Shown here: positions 2,477 through 44,838 of the stretch, piece after piece
Position numbering within the stretch: the stretch's first letter is position 1
Layout: every line of letters starts with the position of its first letter
Assembly (NCBI RefSeq): GCF_002067275.1
Contig: NZ_MVQX01000014.1
Coordinates: 1 to 64,000 of the forward strand
DNA: 64,000 nt
DNA from: Methanomethylovorans sp. PtaU1.Bin093
GTDB lineage: Archaea; Halobacteriota; Methanosarcinia; Methanosarcinales; Methanosarcinaceae
Reading direction: 5' to 3'
Made by a program: the position numbers and the translations under genes
The notes under the pieces: model-generated
Told to the model about the DNA's origin: nothing
What the model saw: the letters and a program-made list of their open reading frames with translations, nothing else
Databases searched by the model: none

Positions 2477-4798
2477 ATGGAACATAAAGATCCCACCGAA
2501 GAAGAGCTGGTCGAACTTATAGGGTCCAGGTTCTCCGGGAGTACTTATTGGAATAATTTTTGCAGTGTTCTTGAAAAGAGCAGCTCGACATATCATGGTG
2601 AACTTCTCATAACTGCCCGTATGCTGCTTGAGAAGGATCTGATGCTCGCAGGAGTTTTCTTTGAGAACTTTCCCAAGGCAGCACAGCACACCGGGTCTGA
2701 AGGGATCAGGAAATGGGCTGGCATTGGCATAAAGATATTTGACCAGGACAAGGATCTTGCATTTGATTACTTTTCCCATTCGGCTGGGCTTCTAAAGGAT
2801 CTGGATGTCAGTGAACTGGAAATGTGGGCCCTGCACGGCATAGCTCTCTTTGAAGAGGATCCATCTCTTGGAAAGCCTTATTTTTCCCTGAATTCTGAGA
2901 GCTCAAAACAGTTCATTGAAGGGCTTAAGGGATCAGCGGCGCTCAATGAGATGGTAAGCGTTCTCAGGTACTATGCCCTTGGCTTGTCAGGTATCAATTT
3001 TAATATTCTTTCCCGAAGGATGTTACAGGTGGAGCAAGAACCCAATTCCTTAAACCCTGTGATAGCGGGCAGGACCATCTACCTTGCACCCAGGATCAGG
3101 AAGTATGGTGATCTTGGAGATAGCTTCAGGATATACAAGCTGAGCATAATGCATGAGGTAGGCCATTTACAGTTCAGCTCCCATAAGATAGAACGTGATG
3201 ATGCAGCAGGACTGATGGCAGATATCAGAAGCAGGTACACGACCATAATGAAAAGGACCTATCTGTCGGGGCTGCAGCCTGAGGGTATAATCGATATCGC
3301 TGACATCATAGCTCTGTTCCCCAACAAAGCACTGGCAGGAACGATACTCGGTGTTCTGGAGGATGCCAGGGTAGAGTACAGGATAATGGAACACTATAAG
3401 GGAGTTCGCTCAGACCTTGAGAGAATAAGATGCCAGATGCTTCTGACAAGGTCTGTCCCGAAAGGCGGCCTGGAGGAGTTCATGGAATCACTGCTATGGA
3501 TCTCGACAGGACATGAACCTGTTTACAATATCAGTGAAGGGACAGAAGGTCTTCTGGAAGAGACAAGGACCCTGCTGAAGGACAGGATCTTCCACGAAGG
3601 ATCTTCTGTCCTTGATTCCCTTTACACTACCTTCAGGATATATGCCATGCTTGATGACCGGATGGGTCCTTTGAGCCACAAGGAGTATGAAACACTGAAG
3701 AACATCGATTATCGCGGAGTTGATATCGGAGCATATGGCAGGAAGGACCCTTTTTCTCCCGGTTCACATGAGAGCATAATCAGCAATTTCATTCCTCAAA
3801 GTGAGATGGAGCCAGAACCAGACAAAGAAGAGCCAAAAGAAGAGGTCAAACGCCAGCCTGCCTATGCTATGAAAAAGAACTGGAAGATACTGGGCAGTTA
3901 CATGTATGATGAATGGGATGCTGTGATCAGTGACTATAAAGCGGATTGGTGTACGGTCAACGAGATCGAGCCTTTTGGCATGTCCAGCGATTACTACAAA
4001 GATGCTTCAGAACATTACAGGCATGAGATCGCGCTGATCAAGCAAGTGTTCGACAGGATGAAGCCGGAAGCATTCCACAGGATGAAGGAACAGACCGATG
4101 GAACTGAGATCGATATCGATGCCTTCATCGATGCCCTGATGCAGAAGAAATGCGGGATAAACCCCGATGACAGGCTCTACCTCAGGTGGGACAAGCACGA
4201 AAGGGACGTTGCAACTCTTTTCCTTATAGATGTCAGTTATTCCACCCATAAAACGATAGGCTATGATGAAAAGAGCATAGTGGATATCGAAAAAGACTCG
4301 CTGATCATCATGGTACAGGCTCTTGAAAGCATAGGCGACAAGTATGCTATCTGTGCATTTTCCGGCCAGACAAGGGATGATGTCGAGTACTTTGTCATAA
4401 AGGAGTTCCATGAGGAACTATCGGACAACGTTGCTCGCAGGATCAGTGTGCTGGAACCGGTGTCCAACACAAGGCTAGGACCTGCCATCCGCCATTCGAT
4501 AAGGAAACTTGACAAAGTAGATGCAAGAACAAAGATCATAATACTGTTATCGGATGGCGAACCCTTCGATACCTCCCGGGGAGAAAGCGCATACAAAGAC
4601 AGAATTGCTGAAGAGGATACCAGAATAGCTATAAAGGAGGGCACTGCCAAAGGAATACATTTCTTCTGTATAACCGTGGACCCGGATCCCGGCAAATATC
4701 TTGACAATATTTTCTCTGATGCAGGATACACAATAATAGATGATGCAAGTTCTCTTCCGGAGAGGCTTCCGATACTGTATAAGAAGATCACTACCTGA
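2477..4798 (+). CDS. NorD/CbbO-type VWA domain protein with an HEVGH motif
   Basis: A 773-residue cytosolic protein. The N-terminal half is helical. A zinc-peptidase-like HEVGH is at residues 226-230, with a downstream LEDARVEYR segment that is typical of the NorD/CobT/CbbO group. A Lys/Glu-rich linker lies near 440-460. The C-terminal third (about 580-765) is a von Willebrand A domain with the metal-site motif DVSYS near residue 584 and a later LLSDGEP. Relatives work with MoxR/CbbQ AAA+ ATPases to insert metals into, or remodel, target enzymes. No such ATPase is in the window, so this copy is an orphan here. Target and metal are unknown. Family assignment is firm; function is inference. Confidence 0.8.
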   Translation: MEHKDPTEEELVELIGSRFSGSTYWNNFCSVLEKSSSTYHGELLITARMLLEKDLMLAGVFFENFPKAAQHTGSEGIRKWAGIGIKIFDQDKDLAFDYFSHSAGLLKDLDVSELEMWALHGIALFEEDPSLGKPYFSLNSESSKQFIEGLKGSAALNEMVSVLRYYALGLSGINFNILSRRMLQVEQEPNSLNPVIAGRTIYLAPRIRKYGDLGDSFRIYKLSIMHEVGHLQFSSHKIERDDAAGLMADIRSRYTTIMKRTYLSGLQPEGIIDIADIIALFPNKALAGTILGVLEDARVEYRIMEHYKGVRSDLERIRCQMLLTRSVPKGGLEEFMESLLWISTGHEPVYNISEGTEGLLEETRTLLKDRIFHEGSSVLDSLYTTFRIYAMLDDRMGPLSHKEYETLKNIDYRGVDIGAYGRKDPFSPGSHESIISNFIPQSEMEPEPDKEEPKEEVKRQPAYAMKKNWKILGSYMYDEWDAVISDYKADWCTVNEIEPFGMSSDYYKDASEHYRHEIALIKQVFDRMKPEAFHRMKEQTDGTEIDIDAFIDALMQKKCGINPDDRLYLRWDKHERDVATLFLIDVSYSTHKTIGYDEKSIVDIEKDSLIIMVQALESIGDKYAICAFSGQTRDDVEYFVIKEFHEELSDNVARRISVLEPVSNTRLGPAIRHSIRKLDKVDARTKIIILLSDGEPFDTSRGESAYKDRIAEEDTRIAIKEGTAKGIHFFCITVDPDPGKYLDNIFSDAGYTIIDDASSLPERLPILYKKITT

Positions 4799-4898
4799 TC
4801 ATGCAATAATGGTGAAGTGATAGGGTATAACTGGTCTTCAACCTCGTGTTTTAACTTCAAATGCATATTACTTTTGAGTATCCAAGTTTGCTCATAAA

Positions 4899-4907
4899 GT
4901 ATATAAC
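4899..4907 (+). promoter_or_regulatory. TATA box for the alpha/beta hydrolase
   Basis: GTATATAAC lies 36-44 nt before the hydrolase ATG. A start site 25-28 nt downstream would leave a very short leader of about 10-15 nt with no Shine-Dalgarno, so the mRNA may be nearly leaderless. Confidence 0.45.
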
Positions 4908-4942
4908 ATCGAAAATGTCAAATTCGTTATGGGTTTACATCT

Positions 4943-5734
4943 ATGGATGAGATCGATATAGGTGGATTACGCATAGCATTCGAACGGAAGGGCGAGGGAG
5001 TACCTCTTGTGCTCCTCCACGGTGGTCTCAGCGACAGCCGGATGTGGCGCAGGCAGCTTGATGAGCTGTCCGATGAATTCACAGTGGTGGCTTGGGATGC
5101 ACCTGGCTGCGGTAGTTCAGCAGATCCGCCGGAGACCTTCCGTTTGCCTGATTTTGCAGACTGCCTTGCTGCATTTATAGAGGAAATCGGTTTAGTAAAG
5201 CCTCACATTCTCGGTCTGTCATTCGGTGCCGGACTCGCACTTGAGTTCTACCATCGCTATCCCACTATCCCGAGATCGCTCATACTGGCTTCGGCTTATG
5301 CCGGGTGGTCGGGATCACTTCCACCCGATATGGTAGAGCAACGCTTGCAGCAGGGGATTCAGCAATCCGAATTGCCGCCCGAGCGGGTCGTTGAGATGTG
5401 GGTCCCTACACTCTTCGTAAAATCTGTATCTGCCGAGGTAATTGAGAAAACAGCGGTGATCATGTCCGAATTCCATCCGGTCGGAATGAGAACCATGCTG
5501 CTTTCTTTCGCTGAGGCCGATCTTCGCGACATGCTTCCAACCATCAAAGTGCCTACACTATTACTGCATGGAGAAGCTGATCAGCGTTCTCCTTTGAACG
5601 TTGTCGAGAACCTGCACGCTAAGATCCAAACATCAAGGCTTGTGATCATACCTGCTGTCGGCCACGAGATCAGCCTGGAGGCACCAGAGGCGTTCAATGC
5701 CGAAGTACGCAGCTTTCTTCTAGCAAATCCGTAA
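4943..5734 (+). CDS. Alpha/beta hydrolase
   Basis: A 263-residue soluble hydrolase of the AB hydrolase-1 type. It shows the oxyanion-hole HGG near residue 26, the nucleophile elbow GLSFGAG with Ser near residue 93, an acid in HGEADQRSP near residue 212, and the catalytic His in VGHEIS near residue 240. The triad and spacing are complete, so it should be an active esterase, lactonase or related enzyme; the substrate is not readable. It stands alone between the VWA gene and an oppositely oriented exporter gene. Its coding sequence looks more GC-rich than its neighbours, and the family is mostly bacterial, so transfer from bacteria is possible but unproved. Confidence 0.85.
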   Translation: MDEIDIGGLRIAFERKGEGVPLVLLHGGLSDSRMWRRQLDELSDEFTVVAWDAPGCGSSADPPETFRLPDFADCLAAFIEEIGLVKPHILGLSFGAGLALEFYHRYPTIPRSLILASAYAGWSGSLPPDMVEQRLQQGIQQSELPPERVVEMWVPTLFVKSVSAEVIEKTAVIMSEFHPVGMRTMLLSFAEADLRDMLPTIKVPTLLLHGEADQRSPLNVVENLHAKIQTSRLVIIPAVGHEISLEAPEAFNAEVRSFLLANP

Positions 5735-39449: not shown

Positions 39450-42400
39450 TCAATGTTGTTTCTTCTGATACACATATCCCAGTCCAAGCACTCCTATCAT
39501 AAGAACGGCAATACCGAATCCAAATCCCGGGGTCTGTTCTGGTTGTGTTCCAGTTGCACTAACGTCTTGAGCATTATTCGCTATGGGAGAAGCAAGTGCT
39601 TTTTGTGCAGTGATCGCAAACGGCCCGAAAGCTGTGTTCCTGGCCTCGAAGATCGCATCGCTTGCAGTGATGCTATCAACGGTTGTTGGCAGCACTTGCC
39701 ATGCATTACCAGCATATACCTGCAATTTCACATCTTCGGGATTCACGTCCGTTTCTTCGATCCACGAACTGCTGACCTTGAACTTTACCTGCGCATCTTT
39801 CATGTTGGATGCAGTGGCAAAACCAGCCTTACCCACCCAGATATTGACATATTTATAGATGGATCCTTCAGGAGTACTGTTAACCAGCTTTGACCTGTTG
39901 TTCAGCACTTCTACAGTGGAGGTGATCTCTCCGGAGTTCTTGAGAGAATAGAAGCTGACCGATAGGATGGGATTGCCTTCCCTTGAGAACTCGTAGGTGA
40001 CATTGGTATTCATCCTCAGATATTCCCTTGCCACGTCTTTCATGGCTACATTTGCAAAGTTCTCGGCAGAGCCTGCACCTCCGCCTCCGCCACTGCTGCT
40101 AATCTTTTTACTGCTGCTTCCCCCGCTACTTCCTCCTCCACCACCGCTACCACTGCTGGACGAGTCGGTCTTCAGGCTAATACTAACTGCCTTGCCCTCA
40201 AGACCGTAGCTATCGTATGGGATCAGAGTATAGTCATAGGTTGTATCACTGGCCAAGTTGCTATCTACGTAGGCCGTTGATCCGCTCACATTGCCAATTA
40301 TACTATTATCTCTGTACATTTTTACAATAGCTATATCAGGGGAATTGGCCCAGGTTAATGTTATGGAGCTTGCAGTGATATCTTTTCCTGCGAGGCCGGA
40401 AATGGTCAGCAATCCAGTGGTTGTTGCTGAATCGTTAACAGATGCCTGATTGATATTCCCTGAAATGTCTACTGTTTTCGCGCTCATGGTGTGCAGGGTT
40501 CCTTCGGTCAATCCGGTTCCATTATAGAAATCCTCAGTTGTATTCGTTACAAATACACCGTCAATGTATACCATCACATGTTTGAAGTCCATATCCAGGG
40601 GCTTTATCCATGACCATCTGATCCAGCTTGAGCCGATACCAGTTTCCTGCAGGTTTGTCACAGGCGCAGGTGGAGTAATATCTGTTGCTGTTACCCGCAG
40701 GATGTGAAGTCCATTAAAAGTATCAGCAACGTATACATAATTGTCCGCTACAGCAAGACCTGTTACCCAATCGTCAGATGGATCATAACTTGCTGCGAGG
40801 ATTGGCATGGAAGGATTTGTAATATCCAGGATCACAAGACCATTAGAACGGTCAGCTATGTATGCATAATTCCCGGACACAGAAGCAGCGTAGGCATACC
40901 CAGCCGTATCATAATTCCCAGTAAGCATCGGAGATGCAGGGTCACTAATATCCAGGATCATAAGGCCATCGTCGCCATCTGCTACATAGGCATATCCGCC
41001 TGCCACAACAACATCCTCTGCATTTCCGACAGTGTCATAGCCTCCTGTAAATACCGGAGCTATGGGGTCAGTGGTATTCACTATGACAAGACCGTTGATA
41101 CCATCTGCCACATATACATGATCACCTTCTATAGTGAGACCTTCTGCAAAACCAGCGGTATCATAACTGCCTTCAAGTTCTGGTACTGCAGGATCTGTGA
41201 TATTTAATATCACAAGTCCGTTAGAATGATCGGCCAAGCAGGCATAATTGGCATTAACAGCAACATCAGATGTTAAAGCAGTCGTATCATAATTGCCGAT
41301 AAGCTCCGGGAATGCCGGGTCTGTGATATTCAGGATGGTAAGGCCATTTCCATAGGTAGCTACAAAGGCATAATCGCCTGTTATCTCCACGTCATATATC
41401 GAATCCTCTGTTTCATAACTACCTATAAGAGCTGGTGATGCAGGGTCAGTGATATCCACTATCAAAAAAGTTGCATTATCAGCCGCATAGGCATGATCAT
41501 TTGCTACAGCAATGTTAAATATCTCTCCTTCAAATTGGCCTGTGAGCTCCACAGTAACACCATTATCTGGTGGGGTTATTGCAGAGTCATTGATCCACAT
41601 AGCATTAATATTTCCGGAAGTGTCCACAGTTCTGATGCTAATGGTATGTGCTGTTTGAGGTGTCAATCCTGTAAGGTTGTAAAACTGTTCTGTTGTATTT
41701 GCGACAAAGGAACCATCGATATATACCATCACATGTTTAAGGTCATGATCTTCCGGATCTGTCCATGTCCATCTGATCCAGCCAGATGCAACTCCGGTTT
41801 CTTGAAGATCTGTTATGGATCTAGGTGGTATGAGATCGCCCATTAATTTTGTGAAATATCTGGCCGAATCAGCTACCCCGTAACCATAGACATAATCGAA
41901 TCCTGGTGTATCAACATCCACCACAGCATCTGAGAGTAATTTCTCGCGCACTTCTGTAGCGGTCATTGAAGTGTTGCTGCTCCAGATCTGGGCTGCTATT
42001 GCTGCAACATGAGGGACAGAGGCACTGGTTCCCCAGAATTCGGTGAAACCTTCTGTTGATGTGGATATGCCATCAACTCCACATATATCAGGTTTGGGCC
42101 TGAGTTGTTCTTCAGGGTAGGCAATTGTTACAGGCCCCTGGGAAGAGTAGTATTCAATGGTGTTAATATTGTTCCACGGCACAGCTCCTACGGCAACGAC
42201 ACCTGGAGCAGCAGGGTGGCCATATATGGAATCTTCGGCAACCAGGTTGATATTATCGACCGTAGCTCCGAGAGACGGGTAAAAGAACAATTCCAAAGTG
42301 CGTGTTGCTGCAGTACCTTGATAATTGTATACTCCTATATAGTAATCCTTTTCTGGTCCGTCGTTGTAGAACTGTATCCACTCAAGTGGATCAGGTCCGG

Positions 42401-43526
42401 TACTATTTGAGACGGCCAAAATATCATGTTCATCATACAGGAGAAGATCATAGTCATTTGATGAAGAACCAAACGGATCATCCCACTGGAGAAAGACCAT
42501 GACGCTACTTCCTGTTTCCATATGTATGGTGAAGAACTCATTATGGAAGTTGTCACCATCATTAACGAAGGTTCCCTGATAATGAGAATCTCCCTCATTA
42601 CCTGCTGAAGAAAGATATAGTACATTATTCCCATTGATCACATCTTCAATATGAGAAGCTACTATCCCATCCTCAAAAAAAGGTTCTTCGTACCATGCAA
42701 CATCATCTATTATAATGTTGCAACCCGCTGCAACCAGTTCATCAATAGCTGAGTTGAATGCTATGATGTTAGCACCGTTATCATGGAAATAAAGCTTTGC
42801 TTCGGGCACCATATCATGTATGATCTCTAGTATGGCAGTGCCTTCATTTCCTCCGAATATATCACTTAGCACAGTAACATCCTCAGGCAGATCTCCGGAG
42901 GCCTGTGATCCAGCGAGATGATCCACTCCATCCGAGATCACTCCGATCTTTATTCCGGTTCCATCTTCACCATAAAAGGTTCGTACGCTGGCCGTTCCAT
43001 GTACATCATCTCCCTCGGTATTGACAGATCCAGCATTTGTTACAGGCGGCAGTACAGTCCTTATGCTTTTTACTTCTTCTAGAGAAGCGAGCTCTTTCAG
43101 TCCATTAAAACTTATCCATGCTACCACAACCGAATTTCTTTCATCCGTATCTGTGATCTCATGTACAAAGGGTTTGATCATTTCAACATTGCAGTCCTCT
43201 TTCAGATGGACATATACGTATACAAGGTCTTCATTTAGTCCATTTGCTGAGTTGGCTGGAATAAAATTTGATGATCGAATACCATTTGAGTTTGTCATAG
43301 GTCTCAATGATAATCCTGATGTTGTTGTGTCATATATAAGATCAAGAAGATCGGTACTGATCTTCTGCTGTGATTCTGTCATGTTATTTTTGTCAGCCTG
43401 GGAATAAAGCTGGAAAACAGCATCATTTCCTGTTGAAGCCTGTGAAACAGGGGTGATAACAATCGATATCAAGAATATTGTTAATACAATACCAATTACC
43501 TGGACAATAGGATCAACCCTATACAA
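39450..43526 (-). CDS. Secreted subtilase-like protein with LVIVD propeller and sorting tail
   Basis: A 1358-residue exported protein. Signal peptide about 8-30; propeptide-like domain about 45-165; S8 subtilase domain about 185-560; FN3-like module about 565-655; seven LVIVD repeats of about 42 residues at 665-945, predicted to form a seven-bladed propeller; two more FN3-like modules to 1120; a Ser/Gly-rich linker; a PGF-pre-PGF domain at about 1155-1310; and TPGFGFGIAVLMIGVLGLGYVYQKKQH as a C-terminal helix of PGF-CTERM type, cited here by its PGF motif. Asp199, Asn310 and Ser501 (GTSASVPH) are in place, but the HGTH motif is replaced by NEGTA, with Glu228. The TTG start has GGAGGAG 6 nt upstream. 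It is probably anchored at the cell surface after archaeosortase processing. Confidence 0.87.
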   Translation of the reverse strand: MYRVDPIVQVIGIVLTIFLISIVITPVSQASTGNDAVFQLYSQADKNNMTESQQKISTDLLDLIYDTTTSGLSLRPMTNSNGIRSSNFIPANSANGLNEDLVYVYVHLKEDCNVEMIKPFVHEITDTDERNSVVVAWISFNGLKELASLEEVKSIRTVLPPVTNAGSVNTEGDDVHGTASVRTFYGEDGTGIKIGVISDGVDHLAGSQASGDLPEDVTVLSDIFGGNEGTAILEIIHDMVPEAKLYFHDNGANIIAFNSAIDELVAAGCNIIIDDVAWYEEPFFEDGIVASHIEDVINGNNVLYLSSAGNEGDSHYQGTFVNDGDNFHNEFFTIHMETGSSVMVFLQWDDPFGSSSNDYDLLLYDEHDILAVSNSTGPDPLEWIQFYNDGPEKDYYIGVYNYQGTAATRTLELFFYPSLGATVDNINLVAEDSIYGHPAAPGVVAVGAVPWNNINTIEYYSSQGPVTIAYPEEQLRPKPDICGVDGISTSTEGFTEFWGTSASVPHVAAIAAQIWSSNTSMTATEVREKLLSDAVVDVDTPGFDYVYGYGVADSARYFTKLMGDLIPPRSITDLQETGVASGWIRWTWTDPEDHDLKHVMVYIDGSFVANTTEQFYNLTGLTPQTAHTISIRTVDTSGNINAMWINDSAITPPDNGVTVELTGQFEGEIFNIAVANDHAYAADNATFLIVDITDPASPALIGSYETEDSIYDVEITGDYAFVATYGNGLTILNITDPAFPELIGNYDTTALTSDVAVNANYACLADHSNGLVILNITDPAVPELEGSYDTAGFAEGLTIEGDHVYVADGINGLVIVNTTDPIAPVFTGGYDTVGNAEDVVVAGGYAYVADGDDGLMILDISDPASPMLTGNYDTAGYAYAASVSGNYAYIADRSNGLVILDITNPSMPILAASYDPSDDWVTGLAVADNYVYVADTFNGLHILRVTATDITPPAPVTNLQETGIGSSWIRWSWIKPLDMDFKHVMVYIDGVFVTNTTEDFYNGTGLTEGTLHTMSAKTVDISGNINQASVNDSATTTGLLTISGLAGKDITASSITLTWANSPDIAIVKMYRDNSIIGNVSGSTAYVDSNLASDTTYDYTLIPYDSYGLEGKAVSISLKTDSSSSGSGGGGGSSGGSSSKKISSSGGGGGAGSAENFANVAMKDVAREYLRMNTNVTYEFSREGNPILSVSFYSLKNSGEITSTVEVLNNRSKLVNSTPEGSIYKYVNIWVGKAGFATASNMKDAQVKFKVSSSWIEETDVNPEDVKLQVYAGNAWQVLPTTVDSITASDAIFEARNTAFGPFAITAQKALASPIANNAQDVSATGTQPEQTPGFGFGIAVLMIGVLGLGYVYQKKQH

Positions 43527-43575
43527 CCGCTACTCCTCCTCTTTTTCAGTTTATTGGAAGCTTAGTTCTACACGG

Positions 43576-44124
43576 TCATGTTTTTTTTATTTTCCTTTTG
43601 AACACCATTCCAGTAAAAAGGACTATTCCTATCAGTTTGATCCAGTTCCCATCTTCAAGATAATTTTTCTCTTCGGCACTATCGCTGTCACTTCCGTTCT
43701 TTTCGGCAGCAACAGAACCGTTGTTCACAACAGGAGGTATTACGGTTCTTATATTTTTGACTTCCTTCAAAGAGGCAAGTGTTTCCAGTTCATTAACGCT
43801 TACCCTTGCAACAGCTACTGAATTTTCCTTGTCCCAGTCAGTTATTTCCTGTACTAGAGGTTCTATATTGCTGGTGTTGTTACCCTTGTAAAGGTAAACA
43901 TACACGTACACAAGGTCGCTACCATCTGAATTAACAACAGTTTCAGTTGATGATTGGTATTTAGTTGCTTCCAGAAGTTTAATCAGATCTGTGCTCAACT
44001 TCTTTTCAGCCTCTGTCATGTTATACTTATCTGTCCCGGCTGAACCATGGACAACAAAAACTGACACCGCAAACACCATCAGTGCAATAGAAATCCTTAT
44101 GATCAAATTCCTTTTTCTCCCCAT
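43576..44124 (-). CDS. Membrane-anchored free-standing subtilase propeptide homologue
   Basis: A 182-residue protein with a signal peptide (about 1-29), an extracytoplasmic domain (about 33-140), an acidic Ser/Asp/Glu linker, and a C-terminal helix (about 161-175) ending in KRKIKKT. The domain matches residues 45-168 of the adjacent subtilase segment by segment: KYNMTEAEKKLSTDL to KNNMTESQQKISTDL, DLVYVYVYL to DLVYVYVHL, and LKEVKNIRTVIPPV to LEEVKSIRTVLPPV. It stops where the protease domain would begin. It lies 49 nt upstream of the subtilase gene in the same direction. It may chaperone or inhibit that enzyme in trans; that is inference. Confidence 0.8.
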   Translation of the reverse strand: MGRKRNLIIRISIALMVFAVSVFVVHGSAGTDKYNMTEAEKKLSTDLIKLLEATKYQSSTETVVNSDGSDLVYVYVYLYKGNNTSNIEPLVQEITDWDKENSVAVARVSVNELETLASLKEVKNIRTVIPPVVNNGSVAAEKNGSDSDSAEEKNYLEDGNWIKLIGIVLFTGMVFKRKIKKT

Positions 44125-44226
44125 GATGATCCCTCAATTGAAACTATTTTCTATCGATCTCTTTTGTCTTTCTTTGCTTATACGAACTACAAATATAGTA
44201 CTTGGCTATATTCTTTTCGATAATGT

Positions 44227-44238
44227 TTTATATATATG
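44227..44238 (-). promoter_or_regulatory. TATA box for the propeptide-subtilase operon
   Basis: Read on the minus strand, ATATATATAAAA lies about 103-114 nt before the ATG at 44124, giving a leader of about 80 nt. It is the strongest TATA-like element in this spacer. Confidence 0.45.
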
Positions 44239-44491: not shown

Positions 44492-44689
44492 TCATTCCAC
44501 GTTCACTGCAACTAGTGAAACCCCAAGATCCTTTTCAGCCTGAAGAAGAAGCTTAAGATCTTCCTCGGACAGATCTGCATACTTGATGTTCATGCCTGAA
44601 AAAGCCAACAGTGTTACACCCATTTTCTCTTCCAGTTCTTTGATAGACTTCATCTGTTTAGCTGTAAGTGAAGAAAATGCCCATATCAT
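44492..44689 (-). CDS. Small uncharacterised protein
   Basis: A 65-residue acidic protein I cannot name. It has two similar helical halves: LTAKQMKSIKELEEKMGVTLLAF (residues about 6-28) and LSEEDLKLLLQAEKDLGVSLVAVN (about 38-61). Each ends in a strand, suggesting an internal duplication of a helix-strand unit. There is no Cys, signal peptide or membrane helix. The ATG at 44689 is preceded by AAGGGT; a TTG eight codons earlier is also open. Coding potential is supported by the repeat pattern and by the terminator that follows. Confidence 0.6.
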   Translation of the reverse strand: MIWAFSSLTAKQMKSIKELEEKMGVTLLAFSGMNIKYADLSEEDLKLLLQAEKDLGVSLVAVNVE

Positions 44690-44838
44690 ATTAATACCCT
44701 TAAATGACAACAATCTTTTACTATTTAATACTGGTCGCAGTATTAATTCTGGATATTTGTAAAAAAAGATATATACGTAAGTTTAATTTATAAATCATAT
44801 ACTAAAACAATTAGAAGATATTATTACCTCAGGACACT

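Follow-up and report, generated by a model that had tools for sequence, protein, structure and literature searches.

Several stand-alone proteins resemble the propeptides of subtilases: Pleurotus POIA1, the yeast proteinase B inhibitor, Arabidopsis SPI-1, Toxoplasma MIC5 and Plasmodium SUB1-ProM, all of them eukaryotic (PMC6993865). The first four are small I9-type inhibitors or regulators of subtilases with the propeptide fold, as is proposed for the protein described here, but they are eukaryotic, and none is described there as membrane-anchored or as still similar to the propeptide of a neighboring enzyme (PMC6993865). A close parallel is SUB1-ProM, an inhibitor of SUB1, which is encoded by a separate propeptide-fold gene beside subtilase genes of the same orientation, lacks a protease domain and acts outside the cytoplasm, as the protein considered here would by its sequence (PMC6993865). 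SUB1-ProM differs in being eukaryotic, in having no anchor reported in the portion of the paper available, in its low similarity to the propeptide of the enzyme and in that its inhibition has been measured (PMC6993865). The protein considered here is archaeal, is probably anchored and is visibly derived from the neighboring kind of gene, and for it we infer inhibition.

Two further groups bear comparison. The propeptide of the archaeal Tk-subtilisin has the closest solved fold and is bound to its enzyme as a separate chain (PDB 2z58, 3a3o, 2z2y), but it is part of the enzyme precursor and has no gene of its own. PepSY-domain propeptides and inhibitors are likewise propeptide domains that also occur outside protease precursors, but they belong to a different family, and the sole link here is a weak fusion in locus L073 of genome G475. 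This 490-aa protein (3822-5294) joins the propeptide core described below to a C-terminal part that resembles PepSY (E=0.0014, short of Pfam's cut-off) and has no protease motif. No archaeal, bacterial or membrane-anchored free-standing subtilase propeptide was found in the literature searched, outside which many subscription journals lie. Soluble eukaryotic analogues are already known, and archaeal, membrane-attached versions may be new.

The free-standing propeptide gene and the adjacent subtilase

The window, which is the whole stretch of 64,000 nucleotides analyzed here, contains an ORF for a 182-aa protein at exactly 43576-44124 on the minus strand, where the plus-strand frame has stops. 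The features of the locus, in the direction of transcription, are these:

44227..44236, minus strand: TATA-like box TATATATAAA, a candidate archaeal promoter of the gene pair, of putative function
44189..44218, minus strand: conserved upstream element GAAAANNATATAGNNNAGTANTATANTTGT, present once in each of five of the six genus genomes
43576..44124, minus strand: free-standing propeptide gene (182 aa), an ORF found in all six genus genomes
44038..44124, minus strand: N-terminal signal peptide, about residues 1-29, MGRKRNLIIRISIALMVFAVSVFVVHGSA, with a hydrophobic 19-mer of mean hydropathy 2.72 and a cleavage site placed by eye
43714..43917, minus strand: propeptide core, residues 70-137, beta-alpha-beta-beta-alpha-beta, from AlphaFold, Foldseek and pN/pS
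43645..43713, minus strand: variable acidic linker, about residues 138-160, from alignments; fast-evolving
43591..43644, minus strand: probable short C-terminal membrane helix, about residues 161-178, WIKLIGIVLFTGMVFKRK, from the conserved WIKxIGxxxF, a low-confidence helix and marginal hydropathy
43533..43540, minus strand: strong ribosome-binding site of the subtilase, AGGAGGAG, preceding its TTG start
39450..43526, minus strand: LVIVD subtilase, B-type, 1358 aa, TTG start, the candidate partner
43026..43232, minus strand: the subtilase's own propeptide core, residues 99-167, from alignment, profile and trees
41847..42959, minus strand: protease domain of the subtilase, about residues 190-560, with Glu for the catalytic His (S8 match 427-550)

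The initial annotation had described the 182-aa protein as an almost end-to-end match to the propeptide of the adjacent subtilase, with three shared motifs in order, and this was borne out by BLASTP against the 1358-aa ORF (39% identity and 54% similarity over 198 aa, E=2e-32). The match covers the signal peptide, a helical N-terminal segment, the core of the propeptide and the run-up to the catalytic domain, and stops at EDG..IK.IG, where the catalytic domain of the enzyme starts. Both proteins carry NMTE..K.STDL, DLVYVYV and NSV..A..S...L..LASL.EVK.IRTV.PPV.N.GSV, in that order. At the point of divergence the enzyme reads on as GTGIKIGVISDG, and the short protein has GNWIKLIGIVLFTGMVFKRKIKKT and then a stop; in the alignments the acidic linker occupies the position of the enzyme's mature N terminus. 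Across the phylum, profile matches extend the similarity to the propeptides of archaeal LVIVD-type subtilases, and within the genome the trees give the core of the neighboring subtilase's propeptide as the nearest relative. A frameshift artefact of a full subtilase was ruled out, there being no catalytic remnant after the gene and an intact subtilase 49 nt downstream.

No TATA-like box was found in the 49-nt gap between the two genes, and it is plausible that the free-standing gene is the first of an operon with the subtilase. The upstream element lies 65-94 nt before the ATG in the window, and every site is upstream of a free-standing gene; the reversed control gave no sites, and the element is retained in G069, where the gene sits elsewhere. 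It was discarded as a sign of co-regulation, with one site per genome and no other genes sharing it. Between the tRNA nucleotidyltransferase gene and the free-standing gene there is a small conserved ORF (MIWAFSSL...SLVAVNVE; 44492-44713, minus strand; L038 6063-6395), present also in G070, for which no convincing family match was found.

The subtilase contains seven LVIVD repeats, a partial Peptidase_S8 match, fn3 and PGF-pre-PGF domains and a C-terminal hydrophobic tail. Its own propeptide is retained, as in the other subtilases. The partner enzymes lack the canonical Asp-His-Ser triad of S8 subtilases: in every relative in which the catalytic motif was found Glu replaces His, and the Asp position is not conserved, whereas the catalytic Ser (GTSA) and the Asn of the oxyanion hole remain. 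Both the window subtilase, in its protease domain (41847-42959), and the relatives' cis subtilases show this Glu (EGTAMLEIIHD), with a variable S-D/N at the Asp region. The Glu-for-His arrangement presumably resembles that of S53-like peptidases, and judged by these residues the partner enzymes are possibly S53-like or altered proteases. Since the standard catalytic His is absent, the proteolytic activity of the subtilases is itself putative.

An AlphaFold model of the 182-aa protein, built on a four-sequence alignment, is fairly confident only in residues 70-129, with a pLDDT of about 75-81 that drops to 66 towards the end; the rest is of low confidence. Within that core the predicted strands and helices follow the propeptide order, beta-alpha-beta-beta-alpha-beta, which is the Inhibitor_I9 (MEROPS I9) fold. 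Foldseek matches of probability 1.00 are Tk-subtilisin propeptides, barring one NapD entry, with TM-scores by target of 0.76-0.79 for the isolated propeptides; the CspB protease (probability 0.97) and the cucumisin propeptide (0.96) were matched also. Foldseek returned no match below E 0.001 for the model, and no propeptide came up when solved structures were searched with a sequence profile. The core is predicted to fold like subtilisin propeptides. The Pfam Inhibitor_I9 model matched neither the 182-aa protein nor the subtilase nor ten relatives; as it misses even the cis propeptide of the neighbor, the whole family lies beyond its reach. The model of the subtilase precursor, built on a two-sequence alignment, has a mean pLDDT of 35, too low for docking to be read from it.

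A C-terminal anchor had been read in place of the protease, and this anchor is only probable. The new terminus NYLxDxxWIKxIGxxxF is common to all six genus copies, and AlphaFold predicts a helix at 163-179 with low confidence. Against this, the hydrophobic core is about 12-15 residues long with Lys/Arg flanks, short and marginal in hydropathy, and no stretch of 19 residues beyond the signal peptide attains a mean hydropathy of 1.4.

Conservation within the genus and the candidate partner

The free-standing gene is intact in all six genus genomes, one of them that of Methanosarcinaceae archaeon UBA470, and a single origin inside the genus is not rejected (p-AU 0.06). At the thresholds used, no free-standing copy was found in the other genomes searched, in nested samples of 106 from the family, 180 from the order and 232 from the class. 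The pN/pS ratio is 0.09-0.41 in the core versus 0.25-1.13 in the linker, and the closest pair, G066 and G070, neither of which has the subtilase next door, gives 0.09 for the core. The gene is under purifying selection in the genus, as a separate conserved gene without a protease domain. The possibility raised at the outset, that this is a recent decayed duplicate absent from relatives, is contradicted by the intact and selected copies and by the conserved C terminus and upstream element.

The pairing with this LVIVD subtilase, as first proposed, did not hold up as a conserved feature of the genus. The B-type subtilase adjoins the free-standing gene only in the window genome and UBA470, and the other four genomes have the gene without an adjacent subtilase. 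In G066, G070 and G067 it occupies the same place, after the tRNA nucleotidyltransferase gene, with no B-type neighbor; in G067 an EamA-type transporter gene comes directly after the short gene, and in the window the same transporter gene follows the subtilase. The genus copies group with B-type propeptides in the tree (97/88), which makes it probable that the B-type enzyme was ancestral and was lost in several lines that kept the short gene. With four of six genomes lacking an adjacent enzyme, the target may be another subtilase, such as the A-type, which has a propeptide of the same family and lies beside a phosphofructokinase-like gene in every genus genome. This genus-wide A-type enzyme is the constant candidate partner. 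At least one protease-less LVIVD protein was also seen beside the A-type subtilase in several genus members (L040, L042, L043, L045).

Free-standing copies in other methanogens

Relatives outside the genus were sought by a phylum-wide search with the propeptide core, followed by searches of the family and class so reached and by reading of the loci. Short free-standing propeptide ORFs were found in another class of the phylum:

G556: signal peptide and core, then a Thr/Pro-rich linker leading to a C-terminal helix; a subtilase gene, itself split by a frame break, follows after 18 nt
G566, G577 and G593: N-terminal transmembrane anchor and core, with only 3-8 residues between the PP motif and the stop; a subtilase gene (frame-broken in G593) follows after 133-157 nt
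G574: lipobox-like signal and an ending like those of G566, G577 and G593; divergent from a subtilase
G535: core joined by a Pro/Thr-rich linker to a C-terminal helix; the frame is apparently broken close to the N terminus, and there is no neighboring subtilase
G509: core preceded by a signal peptide; it lies upstream of a subtilase, lacks an in-frame second anchor and may be a decaying remnant
G597: weak free-standing match

There are 14 free-standing genes overall and eight are linked to a subtilase, seven lying directly upstream of it on the same strand and one divergently. The search for the same gene pair in other archaea, which the initial annotation had suggested, accordingly turned up membrane-attached copies beside subtilases (G556, G566, G577 and others). 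The anchors appear to be of three types: C-terminal transmembrane segments (G556, G535), N-terminal transmembrane segments with a hydropathy of 2.8-3.6 (G566, G577, G593) and the lipobox-like signal of G574. Hydropathy backs the first two types in all five genomes, and membrane attachment, as read from the sequences, recurs across independent copies.

The four copies of G566, G574, G577 and G593 form one clade (97/86) with a cysteine pair conserved after the anchor, an orthologous set that is intact in four species of another genus. In these loci (L081-L084) the two cysteines follow closely on the anchor as an invariant Cys-x5-Cys. The short genes of G556 and G509 are each most closely related to the propeptide of the adjacent enzyme (99/91 and 100/95, respectively). 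The hypothesis that all free-standing copies go back to one origin is rejected (p-AU 2e-5; 2e-54 without G535), as is one origin for the genus together with the four-species clade (p-AU 2e-4); the tree has 68 columns, and the number of origins is approximate. Duplication and truncation of a protease gene appear to have given rise to free-standing genes repeatedly.

Two candidates were set aside. The apparent double free-standing propeptide of G603 (L087) sits where a contig ends and probably represents a fragment of that genus's double-propeptide subtilases, and a small ORF in G609 is part of a frameshifted subtilase. In genera g154 and g159 and others of family f17, the propeptide profile hits subtilase ORFs of about 880-960 aa at two places some 320-500 nt from each other, so that one precursor apparently carries tandem propeptides.

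A proposed role for the free-standing propeptide

The reading that we favor, with the chances about evenly balanced, is that of a membrane-tethered propeptide acting in trans as an immunity-like inhibitor of a surface subtilase. In this view a former subtilase propeptide is now a protein in its own right, exported and retained at the cell membrane. Its propeptide fold would dock on a surface subtilase of the same family, B-type, A-type or both, in the manner of the cis propeptide, and its ...TVxPPVxN tail would enter the active-site cleft. Tethered, and separate from the precursor, it could restrain the enzyme near the cell's own membrane once the covalent propeptide has been cut off; help with folding may be a second role. 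Binding, inhibition, the direction of the effect and the target enzyme are what we infer here. The wider proposition, that methanogens repeatedly make tethered immunity proteins from the propeptides of surface proteases by duplication and truncation, with different anchors converging, is put forward more tentatively, at somewhat less than an even chance.

The protein might instead be mainly a folding chaperone, acting in trans at the membrane on subtilases that have just been exported, and not a restraint on them. Many subtilase propeptides are folding chaperones (PMC6993865; PMC10580911), and in the paired loci the short gene comes first, upstream of that of the enzyme. The enzymes carry their own propeptide, however, which would make a second chaperone redundant and is why we prefer inhibition, and the short gene persists in genomes that lack the adjacent enzyme; we regard a primarily chaperoning role as unlikely.

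It is similarly improbable that the protein is chiefly a localizer, which would bind the processed subtilase at the membrane or free it on propeptide-linker cleavage. The recurrence of membrane attachment over independent origins, by different anchors, would suit such a role, as would the region matching the maturation site that the C-anchored copies retain before the linker. A tether should nevertheless be unneeded by the window subtilase, which has its own PGF-pre-PGF domain and hydrophobic C-terminal tail, and in the N-anchored copies the chain stops soon after the propeptide tail, as would an inhibitor whose C terminus is free.

We give equally little weight to a different role in the envelope, outside the control of subtilases, for which the propeptide fold, a common small-domain topology, was merely available. 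Four genus members keep the gene without the B-type subtilase and the upstream element is shared with no other genes, both of which would fit. The core, including the TVxPPVxN tail region, is still closest to subtilase propeptides, however, all six genomes have an A-type subtilase whose propeptide is of this family, and independent copies adjoin subtilases. Finally, a functionless decayed or truncated duplicate is very improbable, for although the gene clearly originated by duplication and truncation of a subtilase gene and the G509 copy may be such a remnant, the genus copies are intact under purifying selection with a new C terminus and upstream element conserved, and the orthologous set of the other genus is likewise intact.

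The genus provides one conserved and selected example of a free-standing propeptide, and the other lineages provide independent births beside a protease gene with membrane attachment recurring. If the proposed tethered inhibition is correct, it would show how a domain of a precursor becomes an independent regulator, and it would be a way in which archaea may shield their own membrane from their own surface proteases. It would also supply several natural replicates for asking whether selection favors tethering. The recurrence itself suggests a repeated way of controlling such surface proteases in methanogens.
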